DNA from: an uncultured Oleiphilaceae bacterium
GTDB taxonomy: Bacteria > Pseudomonadota > Gammaproteobacteria > Pseudomonadales > Oleiphilaceae
Length of the DNA stretch: 64,000 bases
Reading direction: 5' to 3'
Assembly (NCBI GenBank): GCA_913060665.1
Contig: CAJXUY010000003.1
Location: 124,001-188,000 of the forward strand
The translations under genes were made by a program, and so were the position numbers. Shown one piece after another: positions 3 through 17,117 of this stretch (position 1 is its first letter; each line of letters begins with the position of its first letter). The notes beneath the pieces were generated by a model. That model was given only the letters and a program-made list of their open reading frames with translations. It ran no database searches and was not told the DNA's origin.

Positions 3-1433
3 GACGGTAACCAAGACCTATGGGTTAGGATGCGAAGCGGGTTTTCACTCGACCTTGATATAGATAACCCAAGATTCAACGCACAATTCAACTGGTATAA
101 AAAACATCAGCGTTATATTGATAGAACAACGGCCAGATCTTCACGTTACCTTTATCATATCGTTCAAGAAACTGAAAAACGCGGTATGCCACTAGAGCTT
201 GCATTACTGCCGATTGTAGAGAGTGCTTTCGATCCTTTTGCATATTCCCACGGAAGGGCTTCCGGCATATGGCAATTCATACCCGGCACTGGTAAAGCGT
301 TCGGTTTAAGGCAAGACTGGTGGTACGATGGACGCAGAGACATTGTCGCTTCAACTGATGCAGCCTTAACTTATTTACAGGCACTCGCTAATCGGTTTGA
401 TGGCGATTGGCTTCTAGCATTAGCCGCATATAATTCAGGAGGAGGAACCGTTTCAAAGGCGATTCGGTACAATAAAAAAAGAGGCCGTAAAACTGACTTT
501 TGGTCGTTAAAATTACCTAAAGAGACCCGCGCCTATGTTCCAAAACTTCTCGCTATTTCTAGGCTCATTCAGGAACCTGGTAGCTACGGTATAACGCTTC
601 AACCACTGCCCAACGAGCCCTATTTTGATATTGTTAAAGTGGGGTCTCAGATTGACTTGGCCCAAGCAGCCAAACTGGCAGACATCACGGTAGAAGAGCT
701 CTACCTTCTTAATCCAGGCTTTAACCGATGGGCTACGTCACCACTAGGCCCCCACCGATTATTGATCCCGAAAACAAATACTGAACAATTTAAGACGGCA
801 CTAGCATCAATACCAAGCAGTCAGCGAATTAGCTGGCAACGATATACAGTGCAATCCGGTGACTCACTGATACGAATCGCTAAAAAACACAATACCACAC
901 CTTCTGTTATCAAACAGACCAACAACCTTCGTTCAAATATGATACGAAAAGGTCAAAAGCTCTTAATACCGGTAGCGGCAAAAGGAAACGCTTACTACGC
1001 ATTCAGTTCCGACAATCGAATTGAGAAAAAGCAAAACACAGTTCCAAGAGGTAAAAGCACCTCAAAAGTAGAGTATACGGTCAGGTCTGGCGATACATTG
1101 TGGGACATCTCTAGAAAATACAAAGTAGGTGTAAGAAGCCTTGCCAGATCGAATAGCATGGCCCCTACAGATCCTTTAAAACCGGGCAAAAAACTCGTCA
1201 TCTGGACTCAATCAGCACCTACTAGCATTGCTACAAACTATTCACCTCCAAGTCGATCAAATATCCGTAAAGTAGGCTATCGCGTCAGGAAAGGGGATTC
1301 TCTGGCTCGAATTGCCGGTAAATTTAACGTCACAGTGAAACAAATCGTCACTTGGAATAACATTGACCCCAACAAGTACTTGAAGCCAGGCCAAAAGCTA
1401 AAACTACATGTTGATGTGACCAATGGATCTTAG
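3..1433 (+). CDS. mltD: Membrane-bound lytic murein transglycosylase D, 5' end outside window
   Basis: Cleaves the MurNAc-GlcNAc bond of peptidoglycan with 1,6-anhydro product formation, normally as an outer-membrane lipoprotein. The reading frame is open to the left edge (residues DGNQDLWVR precede the first ATG at 30), so the signal peptide and true start lie outside the window. Numbering from that ATG, the SLT domain covers about residues 35-190, with catalytic Glu64 in PIVESAFDP, then ASGIWQFIPGTG and AAYNSGGG. Three LysM peptidoglycan-binding repeats follow at about 271-315, 348-393 and 415-460, each beginning with a Y-V-x-x-GDSL/GDTL pattern. The stop lies 6 nt from the stop of the convergent gene, leaving no room for a separate terminator. 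Identification is firm. Confidence 0.96.
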   Translation, partial: DGNQDLWVRMRSGFSLDLDIDNPRFNAQFNWYKKHQRYIDRTTARSSRYLYHIVQETEKRGMPLELALLPIVESAFDPFAYSHGRASGIWQFIPGTGKAFGLRQDWWYDGRRDIVASTDAALTYLQALANRFDGDWLLALAAYNSGGGTVSKAIRYNKKRGRKTDFWSLKLPKETRAYVPKLLAISRLIQEPGSYGITLQPLPNEPYFDIVKVGSQIDLAQAAKLADITVEELYLLNPGFNRWATSPLGPHRLLIPKTNTEQFKTALASIPSSQRISWQRYTVQSGDSLIRIAKKHNTTPSVIKQTNNLRSNMIRKGQKLLIPVAAKGNAYYAFSSDNRIEKKQNTVPRGKSTSKVEYTVRSGDTLWDISRKYKVGVRSLARSNSMAPTDPLKPGKKLVIWTQSAPTSIATNYSPPSRSNIRKVGYRVRKGDSLARIAGKFNVTVKQIVTWNNIDPNKYLKPGQKLKLHVDVTNGS

Positions 1434-1439
1434 TGGGCA

Positions 1440-2882
1440 CTACCCTTTATTGGCTAATACAGCCAAACTCATATTAATTTGTGCACAGAAATGCTTAAAC
1501 CCGTTGAAATATGTATCACTCAAAGGTCGCTTAGTTTCTCCTAAGTCAGCATATAAAAAGCCTACTGGTTTTTTATTGGCTTTAATGGGTGCGATCATAA
1601 ACTGCCTCACACCTGTAACCGCAATATAGTCTGGCGTTAGTGCAGCAGTAAGCTCCTTGTCTGCTGTACCGCCAATCCACGAGGGTTTTCCTATACTAAA
1701 AAGCTGAAACAAAAAACCCGAACGACTTTTAACAAAGTTAAATTTGAATTTTTCTCGCCATTCTTCTGTTCCTTCTCCTATTACATATTTCGCAGAGATT
1801 GTCTCTCGCCCCTTATCGAAAATAGCTAAACACACTCTTTCAAGACCAACGCCTCGATGAATACCTTCTAAGACAGTTTGAAACAGCGAATTCATATCGA
1901 CCCCCTCCATCATCATGCCGGTGAGTTCTTGTAGAATTTGTAACTGTAACTCTGGGTTAGGCTGATGCTGACCTTTTGCCCCTAAGCTTGGATCATTTGA
2001 CGTTTCTACAGAGCGAGTGGCTGGAATCATAGCAACCAATACATCGCTACCATAGTTCGCGGCAACCTCTGCTGCTTCATTTGCACTCTCCCTCACCATT
2101 GCCTCTACGTCATTTACTCCACTACTAGTAAAGGCAGCTATTTTCTTAACCAATGCCTTCATCTCAGCACTATCCCACCCTTTTTTCGATACTTGACTAA
2201 CCTCTTCTCCAATCAATACAGCCTCAGCCTTACGTGACATTTTCACTGAGGGCTGCAACGACTCTTGAAGCACCCCTCCCAGTCGCCAGTTTTTAACCAA
2301 AGCCAGCCCTAACCGTTTAAAACTTACACCAATCACCTTTTCAGCGAGTCGGTCACGCTCTCTATCACTCGCACCTTCTTCATAGTACTCAGATAACTCT
2401 GCTACCTCACTTTCGCCGCTAGATAACACCAACATCTCAGCAAGGTGAAGTAACAATGTGGCGACAAATACTTCTTCCTTACCATCTGCTGACATCTTTA
2501 TGCAGATATTTCGCGCTTGTATAGCTGCATGAATGGCATCTGCCATTATTTCAAACAATCTGGTAGAAGGTTGGCCTTGTAGAATGGTTTCGAGCACTTT
2601 AATCGTTATACAAATGTTTTTTATAGTATTGAAGCCAATGGTTAATATTGAGCGACTTACAGTAGTCACCGGGCTTCCTGTAGGATTAAAGTGAACGGTA
2701 TTGGCGACCTTTAATACTTGAGTCGTCAACGAAGCGTCCTTTAGAATAACCTCAGCCAGCTGATTAGCTGATGTTTCATCTGATGACGTCAGTTCATTAA
2801 GCTCTGCGAGAATTGATGTAAGCACTACACCCTCTCCACTATCTAGGCGCTCTACCCATGCAGCTAACCCCTTCTTTTCCAC
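1440..2882 (-). CDS. HDOD domain plus C-terminal GAF-like domain signalling protein
   Basis: Protein of 480 residues. About residues 15-215 form an HDOD domain, a catalytically degenerate relative of HD phosphohydrolases found in signalling proteins; visible are the VILKDASLTTQVLKVAN stretch and the SRSILTIGFNTIKN helix pair. About residues 320-475 resemble a GAF sensor domain (LQELTGMMMEG, then VGLERVCLAIFD). There is no output enzyme domain and no signal peptide, so it is probably a cytoplasmic scaffold or sensor. It starts with GTG, supported by a GGAGG ribosome site just upstream. It sits between mltD and the yej operon, a pair that are neighbours in pseudomonads as I recall, so it looks like a lineage-specific insertion. 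Ligand and partners are unknown. Confidence 0.8.
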   Translation of the reverse strand: MEKKGLAAWVERLDSGEGVVLTSILAELNELTSSDETSANQLAEVILKDASLTTQVLKVANTVHFNPTGSPVTTVSRSILTIGFNTIKNICITIKVLETILQGQPSTRLFEIMADAIHAAIQARNICIKMSADGKEEVFVATLLLHLAEMLVLSSGESEVAELSEYYEEGASDRERDRLAEKVIGVSFKRLGLALVKNWRLGGVLQESLQPSVKMSRKAEAVLIGEEVSQVSKKGWDSAEMKALVKKIAAFTSSGVNDVEAMVRESANEAAEVAANYGSDVLVAMIPATRSVETSNDPSLGAKGQHQPNPELQLQILQELTGMMMEGVDMNSLFQTVLEGIHRGVGLERVCLAIFDKGRETISAKYVIGEGTEEWREKFKFNFVKSRSGFLFQLFSIGKPSWIGGTADKELTAALTPDYIAVTGVRQFMIAPIKANKKPVGFLYADLGETKRPLSDTYFNGFKHFCAQINMSLAVLANKG

Positions 2883-12809: not shown

Positions 12810-12884
12810 GTCGTGACTCCTACACGAACCATGCTTCGATGTTAATAACTAATGTGATCCCCTCTCGATGAAGGAATCACATAT

Positions 12885-13092
12885 AAGCTGCAACATATTG
12901 TTTCAATTGACAAATACATCCAGCCTTTACCCTTTTCAGGTAGGTCACATCCCCCGCCAAAACCTGATAGGGCCTGCAGGGTTAAAATTCTGAATTAACA
13001 GGTTATCAAGCACTGAATCACTATATTTACGCTTGTTGGTGACCTTGTAGGCAATGCGCTGGGTGACCATTAACCCCAGTTGTAACAGAAAC
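12885..13092 (-). pseudogene. Decayed fragment of an IS3-family transposase (OrfB)
   Basis: Translating the minus strand through at least two frameshifts gives pieces in the order expected for an IS3-family OrfB just before and into its integrase core: LGLMVTQRIAYKVTNKRK, then NLLIQNFNPAGP, then QVLAGDVTYLK, then GKGWMYLSI. These match the family pattern (K-V-T, N-L-L-x-R-x-F, P-N-Q-V-W-x-x-D-I-T-Y, G-W-x-Y-L). No full ORF, partner orfA or clear terminal repeats remain, so this is an old relic. It abuts a truncated sensor gene, which suggests that insertion broke it. Confidence 0.7.
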
Positions 13093-13110
13093 AGGTTTTA
13101 ACTTCTGCAT

Positions 13111-13317
13111 CTAAGAGAGTAGTGTTACGCTTGAAGCTGCGTTATTAAGACCGGCAGTGGTATCACTACTAACTTGAAGTAACGACGAATCTAACTGCGT
13201 ATTCGCAAAACGATGAATAACCTCTTTTAAGTACTGGTACGAAAGTGCATTAACCACAACCAAAGGCAGAACAATCATTGGCAGTATTAATAACAAGAAT
13301 TTCGATTTAAGTTTCAC
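13111..13317 (-). pseudogene. N-terminal stub of a membrane sensor protein
   Basis: A 68-residue ORF with GTG start: positively charged MKLKSKF, one strong membrane helix (about residues 8-25), then an amphipathic SYQYLKEVIHRFANTQLDSS region. This is how membrane histidine kinases, diguanylate cyclases and chemoreceptors with a periplasmic sensor domain begin, but everything downstream is missing. The stop is followed within about 20 nt by the IS3 relic. It starts 23 nt after the PilZ gene on the same strand, so it was probably the third gene of the DUF1631-PilZ operon. Whether the stub is still translated is unknown. Confidence 0.6.
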
Positions 13318-13741: not shown

Positions 13742-15493
13742 CTATTTGCCCACTCTAAGGCGGCCAACAACCCTTGATAACGTATCGTCAAATTCAGCAC
13801 CACCACTTAAGATCATGATCTCGCCGGAGATCATCCTAGACATTAGCGCTGGTGTTTTTATTTCAAACTTCTTAAGGCCCATTTTATCAACAAAAATAAG
13901 CTTATCAGTTGCATTAATCTTTACAACCAGCTTATATTTAAGTTTTTCTTCCTCTTCAATGACTGAGATCCATGCACCTAATGATAGATCAGCTATTAGT
14001 TTTAGGGTCGATTGCTCTTGCTCCAATCGTTGTTTCTCAACGGCCTTTAATTGTTGTTCCTTTAATTTTTTTTCCGCCTCTAACTCTTTTAAACGAGCAA
14101 GCTCTTCGGCTTGCTGCTGTTCAAGTCTCAGCTGCTCGGCTTCTGCCTCTGCTTTTAACTTTGCCTTTTCTCTGGCTTCATGCTGCGCATGCGCAACTTT
14201 ACTGAGCCCCTTTAATGTCTCTTTGAATACCTGACTTAACAAATAACAGTTTTTAATCAAACTAATTTGACCTGCCGCGATACCTTGTTGAAAATCTTGA
14301 TAGGGCATAATCAACGATTTCATGCCTGCGTGGTTCAACCACAATATTTCATTCGAGTCCTCAAAGTAACGAGCAAACTTTAATCGAGCCTCAACCCCTT
14401 TTTGTTTGATAAGATACCACTTTTCAGTTAGTTCCAATAATTTCTCACGATTAGGGGTGACCTTTCTATCAAAGTTTAATTCCGGTTCCCTAATAGATAC
14501 CGAAACCCGAGCAATATCAGCACCTTGTAACACAGAGATGAGCAATTGCTGAATAGACTCCCACTCATCGTTGAGAACTTCTATTTCATATTGACTGGCC
14601 GCCACTGCTAGCTCATCAACAAGACCTTCCCCCATATTAAAAATCGAGTCTTTTTTATGCCCAACTACATCAGAGAATACAAAGACTAGCTTCTCCGTCA
14701 GGGCTACTATATCTTTCCACGGTGTATCATTGTCGCTGTCATTCGACCCATGCCTCAGCAGCGCACTCCTCAACACACACCACCACCTATCCACCAAAAA
14801 ATCGGCAATGGGGGAAGGCAAGCGCTGATTTTTAATCAACTGACCCAGTGTATGATAACTATACTCCGTCGCATACCTTGAAGAGGCAGCGCCCTGCTCT
14901 GTGATATTTAGTCGTTCAAATAGTTTAGCTATTCGTTTATCTTGTTTATCTTGTACAGCCAACCATTCTACTCTTAGTGCATTGAGAGGGTCCGGAGAAT
15001 CAGAATTGATGGCCAGAAGGGACTCATGAACGTCTGACAACCGATCGATTACGACTTGACTGACTCTTTTTGGTTCCCGGACCCACCCGAGCTGGCTAGC
15101 ACAAATAGCATCTACCAACGCCAAAACTGGACTATCGTCTGAGTCTAATAGACTAGGGTATTGGACAAATATTTTTGCTAGTGCAAATCTCCAACCGCTT
15201 AAGATGTCTTTTAGCTGACTATCAATATTTGCTTTACGATAAAACACATCAGTAAGCCGGTCACACAAAAACAGTGAGTTATAGATACGAGGAGAAAAAC
15301 GAAACTTATCACTATATACCGCAACCAACTTAATAAGAGATGTCTCACCTTTTAGTAGCGAAGGGTCACTAGCACACGCGGCAAGAAACTCACATAATGT
15401 TGAAACAATCTCTTGCGTTTCCTGATTATTACTAATTTCATATTTTAGCTCGGGAACTCTTAACTCGTTGGTAATTTTACCGATTGACGCCAC
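13742..15493 (-). CDS. DUF1631 family protein
   Basis: Protein of 583 residues. The N-terminal two thirds are helical and include the SPIADFLVDRWWCVLRSALL element typical of DUF1631. A long charged coiled coil (about residues 415-490, rich in Glu, Lys, Gln and Ala) follows, then a C-terminal domain of about 80 residues (LGAWISVIEE, LIFVDKMGLKKFEIKT) that looks like the PilZ-like tail seen in this family. Function is not established; relatives often lie near c-di-GMP genes, which fits the PilZ gene next to it. The GTG start has AAGGAAG upstream. There is no signal peptide or membrane segment, so it is cytoplasmic. Confidence 0.75.
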   Translation of the reverse strand: MASIGKITNELRVPELKYEISNNQETQEIVSTLCEFLAACASDPSLLKGETSLIKLVAVYSDKFRFSPRIYNSLFLCDRLTDVFYRKANIDSQLKDILSGWRFALAKIFVQYPSLLDSDDSPVLALVDAICASQLGWVREPKRVSQVVIDRLSDVHESLLAINSDSPDPLNALRVEWLAVQDKQDKRIAKLFERLNITEQGAASSRYATEYSYHTLGQLIKNQRLPSPIADFLVDRWWCVLRSALLRHGSNDSDNDTPWKDIVALTEKLVFVFSDVVGHKKDSIFNMGEGLVDELAVAASQYEIEVLNDEWESIQQLLISVLQGADIARVSVSIREPELNFDRKVTPNREKLLELTEKWYLIKQKGVEARLKFARYFEDSNEILWLNHAGMKSLIMPYQDFQQGIAAGQISLIKNCYLLSQVFKETLKGLSKVAHAQHEAREKAKLKAEAEAEQLRLEQQQAEELARLKELEAEKKLKEQQLKAVEKQRLEQEQSTLKLIADLSLGAWISVIEEEEKLKYKLVVKINATDKLIFVDKMGLKKFEIKTPALMSRMISGEIMILSGGAEFDDTLSRVVGRLRVGK

Positions 15494-15661
15494 TCTTGCT
15501 TCCTTGATTGTATTAAACGAGGCAACCTACCCAGAAACATTCTTTTTTATGCCTTTATTCTTCTAGAACTAACACACTGTTTATCAGTGACTAAACATAA
15601 TTATAGCTGCGTTTTTAAAAACAAATATTTATTACTGGGAATTTATTAATCCAAAACAATA

Positions 15662-15690
15662 TGATCATATTTTATACAGACGAGTATAAT
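15662..15690 (+). promoter_or_regulatory. Candidate sigma-70 promoter of the small arginine-rich gene
   Basis: A perfect TATAAT (15685-15690) lies 30 nt upstream of the small ORF, with a poor -35 match (TGATCA, 15662-15667) at 17-bp spacing. Transcription would begin around 15697. The rest of the 227-bp gap to the DUF1631 gene shows only AT-rich sequence and a short dyad (CACTG/CAGTG, around 15576). Confidence 0.5.
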
Positions 15691-15720
15691 AGTGTGGCCC
15701 GTAAAAAATAGGGGAATGTT

Positions 15721-15882
15721 ATGTATAACTTAAATTTAGATCGTCGAAAACAAGACAGACGATACGCCCACTCTACCACCAAAGGCGAAAGGTCTTCCTT
15801 AGACAGAAGAAGCGTAGAAAGGCGGTGCGATTCAAGACCGCTAAATGAGTTTCCTTACTTACCGCAAATAATCAGCTATTAG
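15721..15882 (+). CDS. Small arginine-rich protein (53 aa), function unknown
   Basis: A 53-codon ORF beginning MYNLNLDRRKQDRR, with a good ribosome site (AGGGGA, 6 nt before ATG). The peptide is strongly basic in its first 40 residues and repeats a D/E-RR motif: LDRRKQDRR and, 20 residues later, LDRRSVERR. There is no membrane segment and no cysteine pair. It has its own TATAAT-type promoter and a strong terminator 35 nt after the stop, giving a transcript of about 245 nt. It may be a small nucleic-acid- or protein-binding factor; alternatively the transcript acts as a regulatory RNA. I do not recognise a named family. Confidence 0.6.
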   Translation: MYNLNLDRRKQDRRYAHSTTKGERSSLDRRSVERRCDSRPLNEFPYLPQIISY

Positions 15883-15916
15883 GGCTTTGGTACGCCAGCA
15901 TATCAATACTTCTGAG

Positions 15917-15944
15917 ACCCGCTTAACCGCGGGTTTATTTTTTG
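15917..15944 (+). terminator. Intrinsic terminator after the small arginine-rich gene
   Basis: ACCCGC and GCGGGT form a 6-bp GC-rich stem with a 6-nt loop, directly followed by TTATTTTTTG. This is a classical Rho-independent terminator on the plus strand. It separates the small gene from the DAHP synthase gene. Confidence 0.8.
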
Positions 15945-16049
15945 TATCACTTCCTTGATTTGATCCGTTGCAATATGAAATTGAATAACGCAACATAGCA
16001 TCACATTTTTTATAGACAACACTAATCAAATAAACACTGGATAGGACTG

Positions 16050-17117
16050 ATGAGCACCTCTTCTCTCGACAACGTAAATGTTGCCAGTCAGGAAATACTG
16101 ATTACACCTGACAAATTAAAACAAGATATTCCTCTAACTGAACTCGCAGCTCAAACCATTAGTAATGGCAGAGAGACCATTAATAATATATTAGATAGAA
16201 AAGACCACCGAATATTTGTGGTGGTTGGGCCATGCTCAATACATGATGTAAAAGCGGCCAAAGAGTATGCCCTACGGCTGAAAAAACTCGCGGAAGAAGT
16301 CAGCGATACACTTGTGCTGGTTATGAGAGTTTACTTTGAAAAGCCGCGTACCACCGTAGGCTGGAAAGGATTGGTCAATGACCCTCATTTAGATGATTCA
16401 TTTGAAATTGAAGAAGGCCTACACATTGGTCGACAACTGCTAATGGATATCGCAGAAATTGGATTACCAACGGCAACAGAAGCGTTAGACCCAATATCAC
16501 CTCAGTACCTGCAGGACACTATTACCTGGAGTGCAATCGGTGCGCGTACGACTGAATCCCAAACACATAGAGAGATGAGCAGCGGGCTATCTGTTGCGAT
16601 TGGTTTTAAAAATGGTACTGATGGTAACCTTGATGTAGCCACCAACGCCTTGAACTCAGTATCACATCCTCATAGTTTCTTAGGTATTAACCCTGAAGGT
16701 CAGGTCGCCATTATTAGAACCAAAGGCAACCCATACTCCCACATCGTACTCCGTGGTGGTGGTGGAAAGCCAAACTATGACTCCGTCAATATAGCGTTAT
16801 GCGAACAGCAGCTCGAGAAGTCTGGCCTGTCAAATAACATAATGGTTGATTGTAGTCACGCAAACTCAAACAAAGACGCTAATTTACAACCATTGGTCGT
16901 ACAAGATATTGCTCACCAAGTACAGGAAGGAAACAAGTCGATTGTCGGTTTGATGATTGAAAGTAACTTGAATTTCGGTAATCAGTCGATACCAAAAGAT
17001 TTATCTGAATTGAAATATGGTGTATCGGTCACAGATGCGTGTATCGACTGGGAAACCACTGAGAAGACGCTTAAAGAAATGCGTAACAAACTAAAAGACG
17101 TCCTATCCACTAGATAG
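16050..17117 (+). CDS. aroG: 3-deoxy-7-phosphoheptulonate (DAHP) synthase, class I
   Basis: Condenses phosphoenolpyruvate and erythrose 4-phosphate, the first step of the shikimate pathway. The 355 residues match the AroF/AroG/AroH family (348-356). Visible hallmarks are VVVGPCSIHD, the FEKPRTTVGWKG phosphate-binding segment, the metal-ligand Cys in GPCS, and MVDCSHANSNK near the C-terminus. Which amino acid inhibits it cannot be read with confidence, so the symbol only denotes the family. The start has AGGA 5 nt upstream. It is a single-gene unit that converges on cysG. Confidence 0.93.
   Translation: MSTSSLDNVNVASQEILITPDKLKQDIPLTELAAQTISNGRETINNILDRKDHRIFVVVGPCSIHDVKAAKEYALRLKKLAEEVSDTLVLVMRVYFEKPRTTVGWKGLVNDPHLDDSFEIEEGLHIGRQLLMDIAEIGLPTATEALDPISPQYLQDTITWSAIGARTTESQTHREMSSGLSVAIGFKNGTDGNLDVATNALNSVSHPHSFLGINPEGQVAIIRTKGNPYSHIVLRGGGGKPNYDSVNIALCEQQLEKSGLSNNIMVDCSHANSNKDANLQPLVVQDIAHQVQEGNKSIVGLMIESNLNFGNQSIPKDLSELKYGVSVTDACIDWETTEKTLKEMRNKLKDVLSTR

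Follow-up and report, generated by a model that had tools for sequence, protein, structure and literature searches.

A short segment of DNA lying between two unrelated genes raises the question of what it encodes: a small protein, a regulatory RNA, or a leader belonging to the gene downstream. We have examined this segment within a 64,000-nucleotide stretch, referred to below as the window, and in related genomes. On one side it is bounded by a DUF1631 gene on the minus strand (positions 13742-15493), which has a PilZ gene beside it on the same strand, and on the other side by the plus-strand gene for DAHP synthase, aroG (16050-17117); the three genes were identified by Pfam searches with the window's copies (DUF1631, PilZ and DAHP_synth_1, respectively). 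A preliminary description, made from the sequence of the segment, had proposed a stand-alone unit with a perfect TATAAT, a good ribosome site, a 53-codon ORF and an intrinsic terminator, which would together give a transcript of about 245 nt. We found each of these elements (Table 1), and the transcript would be about 247 nt long if the predicted start near position 15697 holds.

Table 1. Features of the small gene and its product in the window
Feature	Position	Strand	Basis
Small protein gene, 53 aa + stop (TAG)	15721-15882	+	ORF listing, homologues, dN well below dS
-10 hexamer TATAAT of the predicted promoter	15685-15690	+	Sequence position; -35 poor
Possible 5'-terminal hairpin	15697-15715	+	CCC at predicted mRNA start with GGG of ribosome site; weak
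Ribosome-binding site AGGGGA	15710-15715	+	Read from sequence
First module DRRKQDRR, residues 7-14	15739-15762	+	R8, R9, R13, R14 invariant in 13/13
Second module DRRSVERR, residues 28-35	15802-15825	+	R29, R30, R34, R35 invariant and residue 33 acidic in 13/13
C-terminal tail motif D-x-RPL-x-x-FPxLP, residues 37-48	15829-15864	+	Alignment of 13 members
Intrinsic terminator (stem of 8 pairs and a T run)	15915-15943	+	Stem at 15915-15936, T run to 15943

Coding status and transcription signals

The ORF begins with the ATG at 15721, five bases beyond the end of the AGGGGA element, and its stop codon occupies 15880-15882. A plain protein search of 58 relatives gave eleven stop-free and nearly full-length matches, the window's own included, together with 2 further weak matches that both contained stops; among the 37 genomes of the window's family covered by this search, 11 had the gene. 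A profile built from these eleven matches was then used to search 163 genomes of the family, and it detected a clear homologue, spanning nearly the whole length of the protein, in 13 of them, again counting the window's (profile E at or below 6.5e-16; the next match was at 0.004). The carriers are five genomes of genus g1 (every one shown), 6 of the 7 shown for g5, and one each of g6 and g8. G059, a g5 genome that lacks the gene, was searched a second time with the G058 protein and yielded no copy (best E 0.72). A single named locus in a Hahellaceae MAG, from a genome-contig collection, probably represents G004 again and was not counted as an additional member.

The reading frame is thus kept in 12 other genomes, the point on which the protein-coding proposal had been staked beforehand, and 16 alignment columns are invariant over the 13 members: M1, Y2, L4, R8, R9, R13, R14, R29, R30, R34, R35, D37, R39, F44, P45 and P48. 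Codon-substitution estimates, which had been suggested as a check, agree with this picture, since in the g1 pairs dN fell far short of dS. Over the ten g1 pairs dN ranged from 0.15 to 0.43; dS was 0.62-3.0 in five of them, giving dN/dS ratios of 0.05-0.29, and was saturated in the other five, where dN was 0.23-0.43. The pair G008-G058 had a dN of 0.32, again with dS saturated. Among four close g5 genomes, dN was zero in one of the 6 pairs and below dS by about 1.6- to 11-fold in the other five; each of these estimates is based on 2-6 changes, and little can be concluded from the pair G032-G022 (dN/dS about 0.6). Taken as a whole, the comparisons strongly support the assignment of the ORF as a genuine protein gene under selection.

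Transcription signals were examined in the same set. TATAAT is kept in all five g1 genomes, and a -10 element lies 30-52 bases to the 5' side of the ATG in 11 of the 13 members (TATAAT in the five from g1, TATGCT in the six from g5); neither hexamer occurs within that distance in G011 and G009. A good -35 is absent, in that a promoter scan gave no 9/12 sigma-70 match in 15480-16060; TGATCA, at 17-nt spacing, agrees by eye with 3 of the 6 consensus positions. To the 3' side of the stop codon, a CCCGC...GCGGG stem with a T-rich tail could be discerned by eye in the other four g1 genomes. As judged from these promoter-like and terminator-like signals of its own, the small gene is probably monocistronic.

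The preliminary description had left the choice between a protein and a regulatory RNA undecided, and the protein half of that alternative is the one that stood. If the RNA structure rather than the peptide were what matters, in a regulatory or dual-function transcript, the compact promoter-to-terminator unit would be accounted for. However, the whole transcript folds no better than its shuffled counterparts (z -0.23, with 77 of 200 shuffles as good), a result that lends no support to a structured regulatory RNA; there were no Rfam matches at the gathering score in the window; and amino-acid changes are strongly depleted. A possible structural element lies at the 5' end. In the lowest-energy fold, the predicted 5' end of the mRNA pairs with part of the ribosome site in 10 of the 11 members that have a -10 element (G001 is the exception), and the stem recurs with different letters in the 2 genera, CCC:GGG in g1 and GAGUCC or GGGUCC with GGACUC in g5. 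Yet the folding energies of the 5' regions do not differ from those of shuffles (z from -1.54 to +1.43 over the 13 members), and a hairpin over the ribosome site would in any case control the protein. Because of these energies, and because the transcription starts are predicted ones, we regard the 5' stem only as a lead to possible translational control, and a role resting on RNA structure rather than on the peptide as very improbable.

Genomic setting and distribution of the gene

We compared the neighbourhoods of nine carriers besides the window, using up to 17 kb of each and listing the genes within 6 kb; neighbours were identified by BLAST against the window's proteins, in combination with Pfam on the window's copies. 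In eight of the nine, PilZ and DUF1631 genes on the minus strand come first, followed on the plus strand by the small gene and then by that for DAHP synthase. This slot, between the divergent DUF1631-PilZ pair and aroG, is common to g1, g5 and g8, and in the remaining three g5 carriers (G022, G027 and G060) the small gene is likewise upstream of aroG. The exception is G009, whose copy is found on a 10.7-kb contig among other genes; its own aroG slot has DUF1631 and no copy. In G059, which lacks the small gene, DUF1631 adjoins aroG.

Such an arrangement could suggest that the ORF encodes a leader peptide of the DAHP synthase gene, with the terminator acting as an attenuator and translation of the ORF sensing an aromatic amino acid. 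The ORF is just upstream of aroG and reads in the same direction in g1, g5 and g8, the terminator stands between the two in the window, and the peptide ends with FPY[LI]P..ISY in g1. However, Phe, Tyr or Trp codons do not form a run, and it is arginines, spread over the entire ORF, that are under constraint. The presence of the gene away from aroG in G009, with no homologue in the aroG slot of that genome, also speaks against a leader function, as does its distribution: of the 37 family genomes in the plain protein search no more than 11 have it, and aroG persists in its absence, as checked on 21 upstream regions of aroG that do not contain the small gene. Further, the five g1 genomes have in common a separate conserved block between the terminator and aroG, as would be expected of a promoter. 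By these observations, a leader peptide is about the last explanation that we would favor.

The block just mentioned, at 15950-16005 (TTCCTTGA...TCCGTTGCA...GAATAA.GCAACATA), is strongly conserved among the five g1 genomes, contains a GTTGC/GCAAC inverted pair and is likely to be the aroG promoter or an operator. On the opposite side of the small gene, the sequence AATTATAG (minus-strand reading, CTATAATT) is retained by 4 of the 5 g1 genomes about 80 bases before the -10 of the small gene. We infer from it a promoter for DUF1631, which would diverge from that of the small gene. A 12-base palindrome, GTTTTTAAAAAC, at 15611-15622 between these 2 predicted promoters, is a possible operator or UP element; it is identical in 3 of the 5 g1 genomes and altered in the other two.

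The distribution of the gene was examined on a tree of DAHP synthase proteins with 34 rows, representing the 13 carriers, 20 of about 150 non-carriers and one outgroup. Carriers fall in three places, so that at least four gains or losses are needed on this tree, which represents one gene, has its outgroup row inside the family and shows the g6 row on a long branch. When carrier labels were shuffled, 10.5 changes were needed on average, and none of 500 shuffles was as low as four. Because the slot is the same in three genera, a single origin followed by repeated loss appears to be the simplest reading of this distribution; lateral spread into the same slot is a possible alternative. A profile search of the 21 aroG upstream regions without the gene revealed no remnants (best whole-frame E 1.4), under conditions in which all four positive controls were found at E of 8.3e-22 or below. 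As far as these genomes indicate, the gene is selected where it is present, yet it is dispensable on an evolutionary scale, because close relatives lack it.

Arginine-pair modules and relationship to known proteins

The alignment of the 13 members defines a protein that starts with MY[ND]L, continues with two modules resembling [DE]RRxx[DE]RR, separated by 14-18 residues, and closes with a near-fixed tail, D-x-RPL-x-x-FPxLP. Conservation is concentrated in these parts. The linker sequence varies freely, its length being 14 residues in 10 members, 16 in one and 18 in two. A duplicated LDRR-x5-RR motif had been described from the raw sequence; the duplication is real, but the spacing was not as given, for the repeat is LDRR-x3-RR, with copies LDRRKQDRR at residues 6-14 and LDRRSVERR at residues 27-35. 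Within each module the second RR pair follows the first at a spacing of five residues, and acidic residues precede the pairs. Positions 7 and 33 are acidic in 13/13 members, position 12 in 11/13 and position 28 in 10/13; with residue 12 non-acidic in two members and residue 28 in three, the module consensus is strict for the arginines only. In the tail, D37, R39, F44, P45 and P48 are invariant, and P40, L41 and L47 are each found in 12/13.

Such a pair of modules is not readily produced by composition. Among 300,000 shuffled sequences with the composition of the protein, none had two [DE]RRxx[DE]RR modules and 211 had at least one. At the DNA level, the module pattern had 7 matches on both strands of the protein's own genome, two of which are the modules of this gene; the reversed pattern, used as a control, matched 7 times as well, so that the remaining five are no more than chance would give. 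An AlphaFold prediction based on the 13-row alignment placed helices at residues 4-15 and 26-35, over the modules, with a mean pLDDT of 65 and a pTM of 0.23. This low confidence makes the helices only a hint, and the model weakly suggests a protein with two helices over the modules and no fold.

By every library that we searched, the family is uncatalogued. The window's protein had no match in Pfam or NCBIfam at E at or below 10, and none in phages or plasmids. With all 13 members as queries, NCBIfam and PADLOC gave no match, and nothing convincing emerged from Pfam (two families, one matched by two members and the other by a single member, best E 0.038) or from PHROGs (two families, one member each, best E 0.046). 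PDB sequences contained no match, searches of an open-licence library turned up no relevant paper, and of 10 stretches in viral contigs that fit a pattern none was confirmed. Profile searches of the order (390 genomes drawn) and the class (369 genomes) led to no further accepted member. This outcome rests on inspection of a part of the weak matches from the order, with at least 12 selected loci of the family and order searches, and of all seven from the class. The best of them, locus L041 (E 3.3e-4), falls within a 326-aa ORF that is read in a different frame of that strand, and it was rejected.

Three other weak matches, L118 (E 0.0077), L115 (0.0045) and L053 (0.027), do contain two clusters of arginine pairs, but within different proteins, and they were treated as convergent. 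L115 encodes a DUF5658 membrane-type protein (PF18902) with DRRCGERR ... ARRRYARR before its DUF5658 part; the window's protein has no DUF5658, and the profile similarity reaches only E 0.0045, so that the likeness looks like convergence of a simple motif. DUF5658 had been considered as a parent family and was dropped, being present in only 2 of the 58 relatives and in none of the window's family. At L118, from the same class, a 104-aa ORF (1315-1626, plus strand) without a Pfam match has several Cys followed by DRRLEDRR...NNRRIIDRR. At L053, from the same order, a 275-aa open frame on the minus strand (760-1587) carries DRRNHERR...YERRSLQRR at its C-terminal end, a double-module layout like that of the small protein, here as a tail. 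The occurrence of the clusters in different proteins suggests that this simple motif arises more than once, and tandem arginine-pair modules may be a recurring peptide element.

Possible partners and functions of the small protein

The 13 proteins have 9-14 arginines and a net charge (R+K-D-E) of +3 to +7, a basic composition that fits a nucleic-acid or acidic-protein partner. We favor, at a probability of roughly 0.4, a small, basic adaptor, mostly unfolded or with two helices, in which the arginine pairs would bind an anionic partner (RNA or a nucleotide) and the tail would dock on a protein. Each module would form a short helix presenting its paired arginines to the polyanion, the two modules on their linker would permit bivalent binding, and docking of the D-x-RPL-x-x-FPxLP tail on a protein partner would make the peptide an adaptor or modulator. 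This reading draws its support from the homologues in 13 of 163 family genomes, the 16 invariant columns, the dN/dS values, the common slot and the AlphaFold helices over the modules. Against it are the lack of a homologue of known function in the libraries searched, the low confidence of the AlphaFold model, the module consensus that is strict for the arginines only, and the acidic residues in each module, which with a net charge of +3 to +7 give a charge pattern that is not purely nucleic-acid-like.

Another role, which we consider unlikely, is that of a ribosome-associated or stress-type basic protein acting like RMF or SRA without being either. RMF and SRA are small ribosome-associated proteins that have Pfam models. 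Like them, the present protein is small, basic and, by prediction from sequence, transcribed as a separate unit; it differs in having no convincing sequence match to them in the Pfam searches described above, both with the window's protein and with the 13 members.

We also considered whether the modules could bind cyclic di-GMP or another nucleotide. The first motif of PilZ domains is RxxxR, and Rxx[DE] is the I-site pattern of diguanylate cyclases; each module of the small protein has the former and, in most cases, the latter, with R9xxxR13 and R30xxxR34 invariant in 13/13. The DRRxxxR of the small protein resembles the N-terminal RxxxR of the PilZ domain (PF07238), and DDRREESR occurs close to the N terminus of the PilZ protein encoded nearby. 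However, neither a PilZ domain (Pfam, E at or below 10, for the window's protein) nor a D/NxSxxG motif (in the alignment) is present, and the acidic residue at position 12 is missing from two of the 13 members. Another c-di-GMP signature, that of BldD, reportedly has the pattern RXD-X8-RXXD. The small protein similarly places two arginine-acid clusters in one short stretch, but these are further apart, and RXD-X8-RXXD was not seen in the alignment by eye.

The gene neighbourhood can be read both ways. A PilZ gene is nearby in the window, with BLAST homologues in g1, g5 and g8, and in G001 a dCache-GGDEF-EAL gene adjoins the DUF1631-PilZ pair; G002 and G004 have ORFs of 825 and 822 aa whose first residues are similar to the G001 protein. 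On the other hand, the window has only a broken copy of the GGDEF-EAL gene, none was seen in G003 or among the neighbours listed within 6 kb in g5 and g8, and the small gene of G009 lies elsewhere. Moreover, a DUF1631 homologue adjoins aroG in 19 of the 21 upstream regions without the small gene; since the two are neighbours whether or not the small gene is present, the neighbourhood is weak evidence for nucleotide binding. In the aggregate, we think it improbable that the protein is a small binder of c-di-GMP or another nucleotide. Slightly more doubtful is the specific form of this proposal, in which a stand-alone mini-receptor of about 53 residues, without a PilZ domain, would hold c-di-GMP or another nucleotide second messenger between two helical RRxxxRR clamps and signal through its FPxLP tail to a partner, possibly a product of the DUF1631-PilZ pair. 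The rest of the probability, beyond the five readings named in this report, belongs to roles that are not nameable from sequence.

What had been a guess from raw sequence is now a defined family of 13 small proteins, which has a clear consensus and a conserved place in the genome. The finding is modest though uncatalogued: a small, basic, arginine-rich protein that is restricted to one lineage and retained in a few related genera. Its twin arginine-pair modules and near-fixed tail make the choice of sharp mutants easy. If the partner is a nucleotide second messenger, the protein would stand out as a receptor of unusually small size; if not, it would be another lineage-restricted accessory protein.

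One further observation concerns the GGDEF-EAL gene of genus g1. The window retains a remnant of it on the minus strand, at 13048-13317 and 12851-12883, which matches residues 1-96 of the 823-aa G001 protein (55% identity) and, weakly, its last 11 residues (E 0.012). In G003 there is no such gene between the hydrolase-like and PilZ genes. From these sequences, the c-di-GMP enzyme seems to be decaying in g1.
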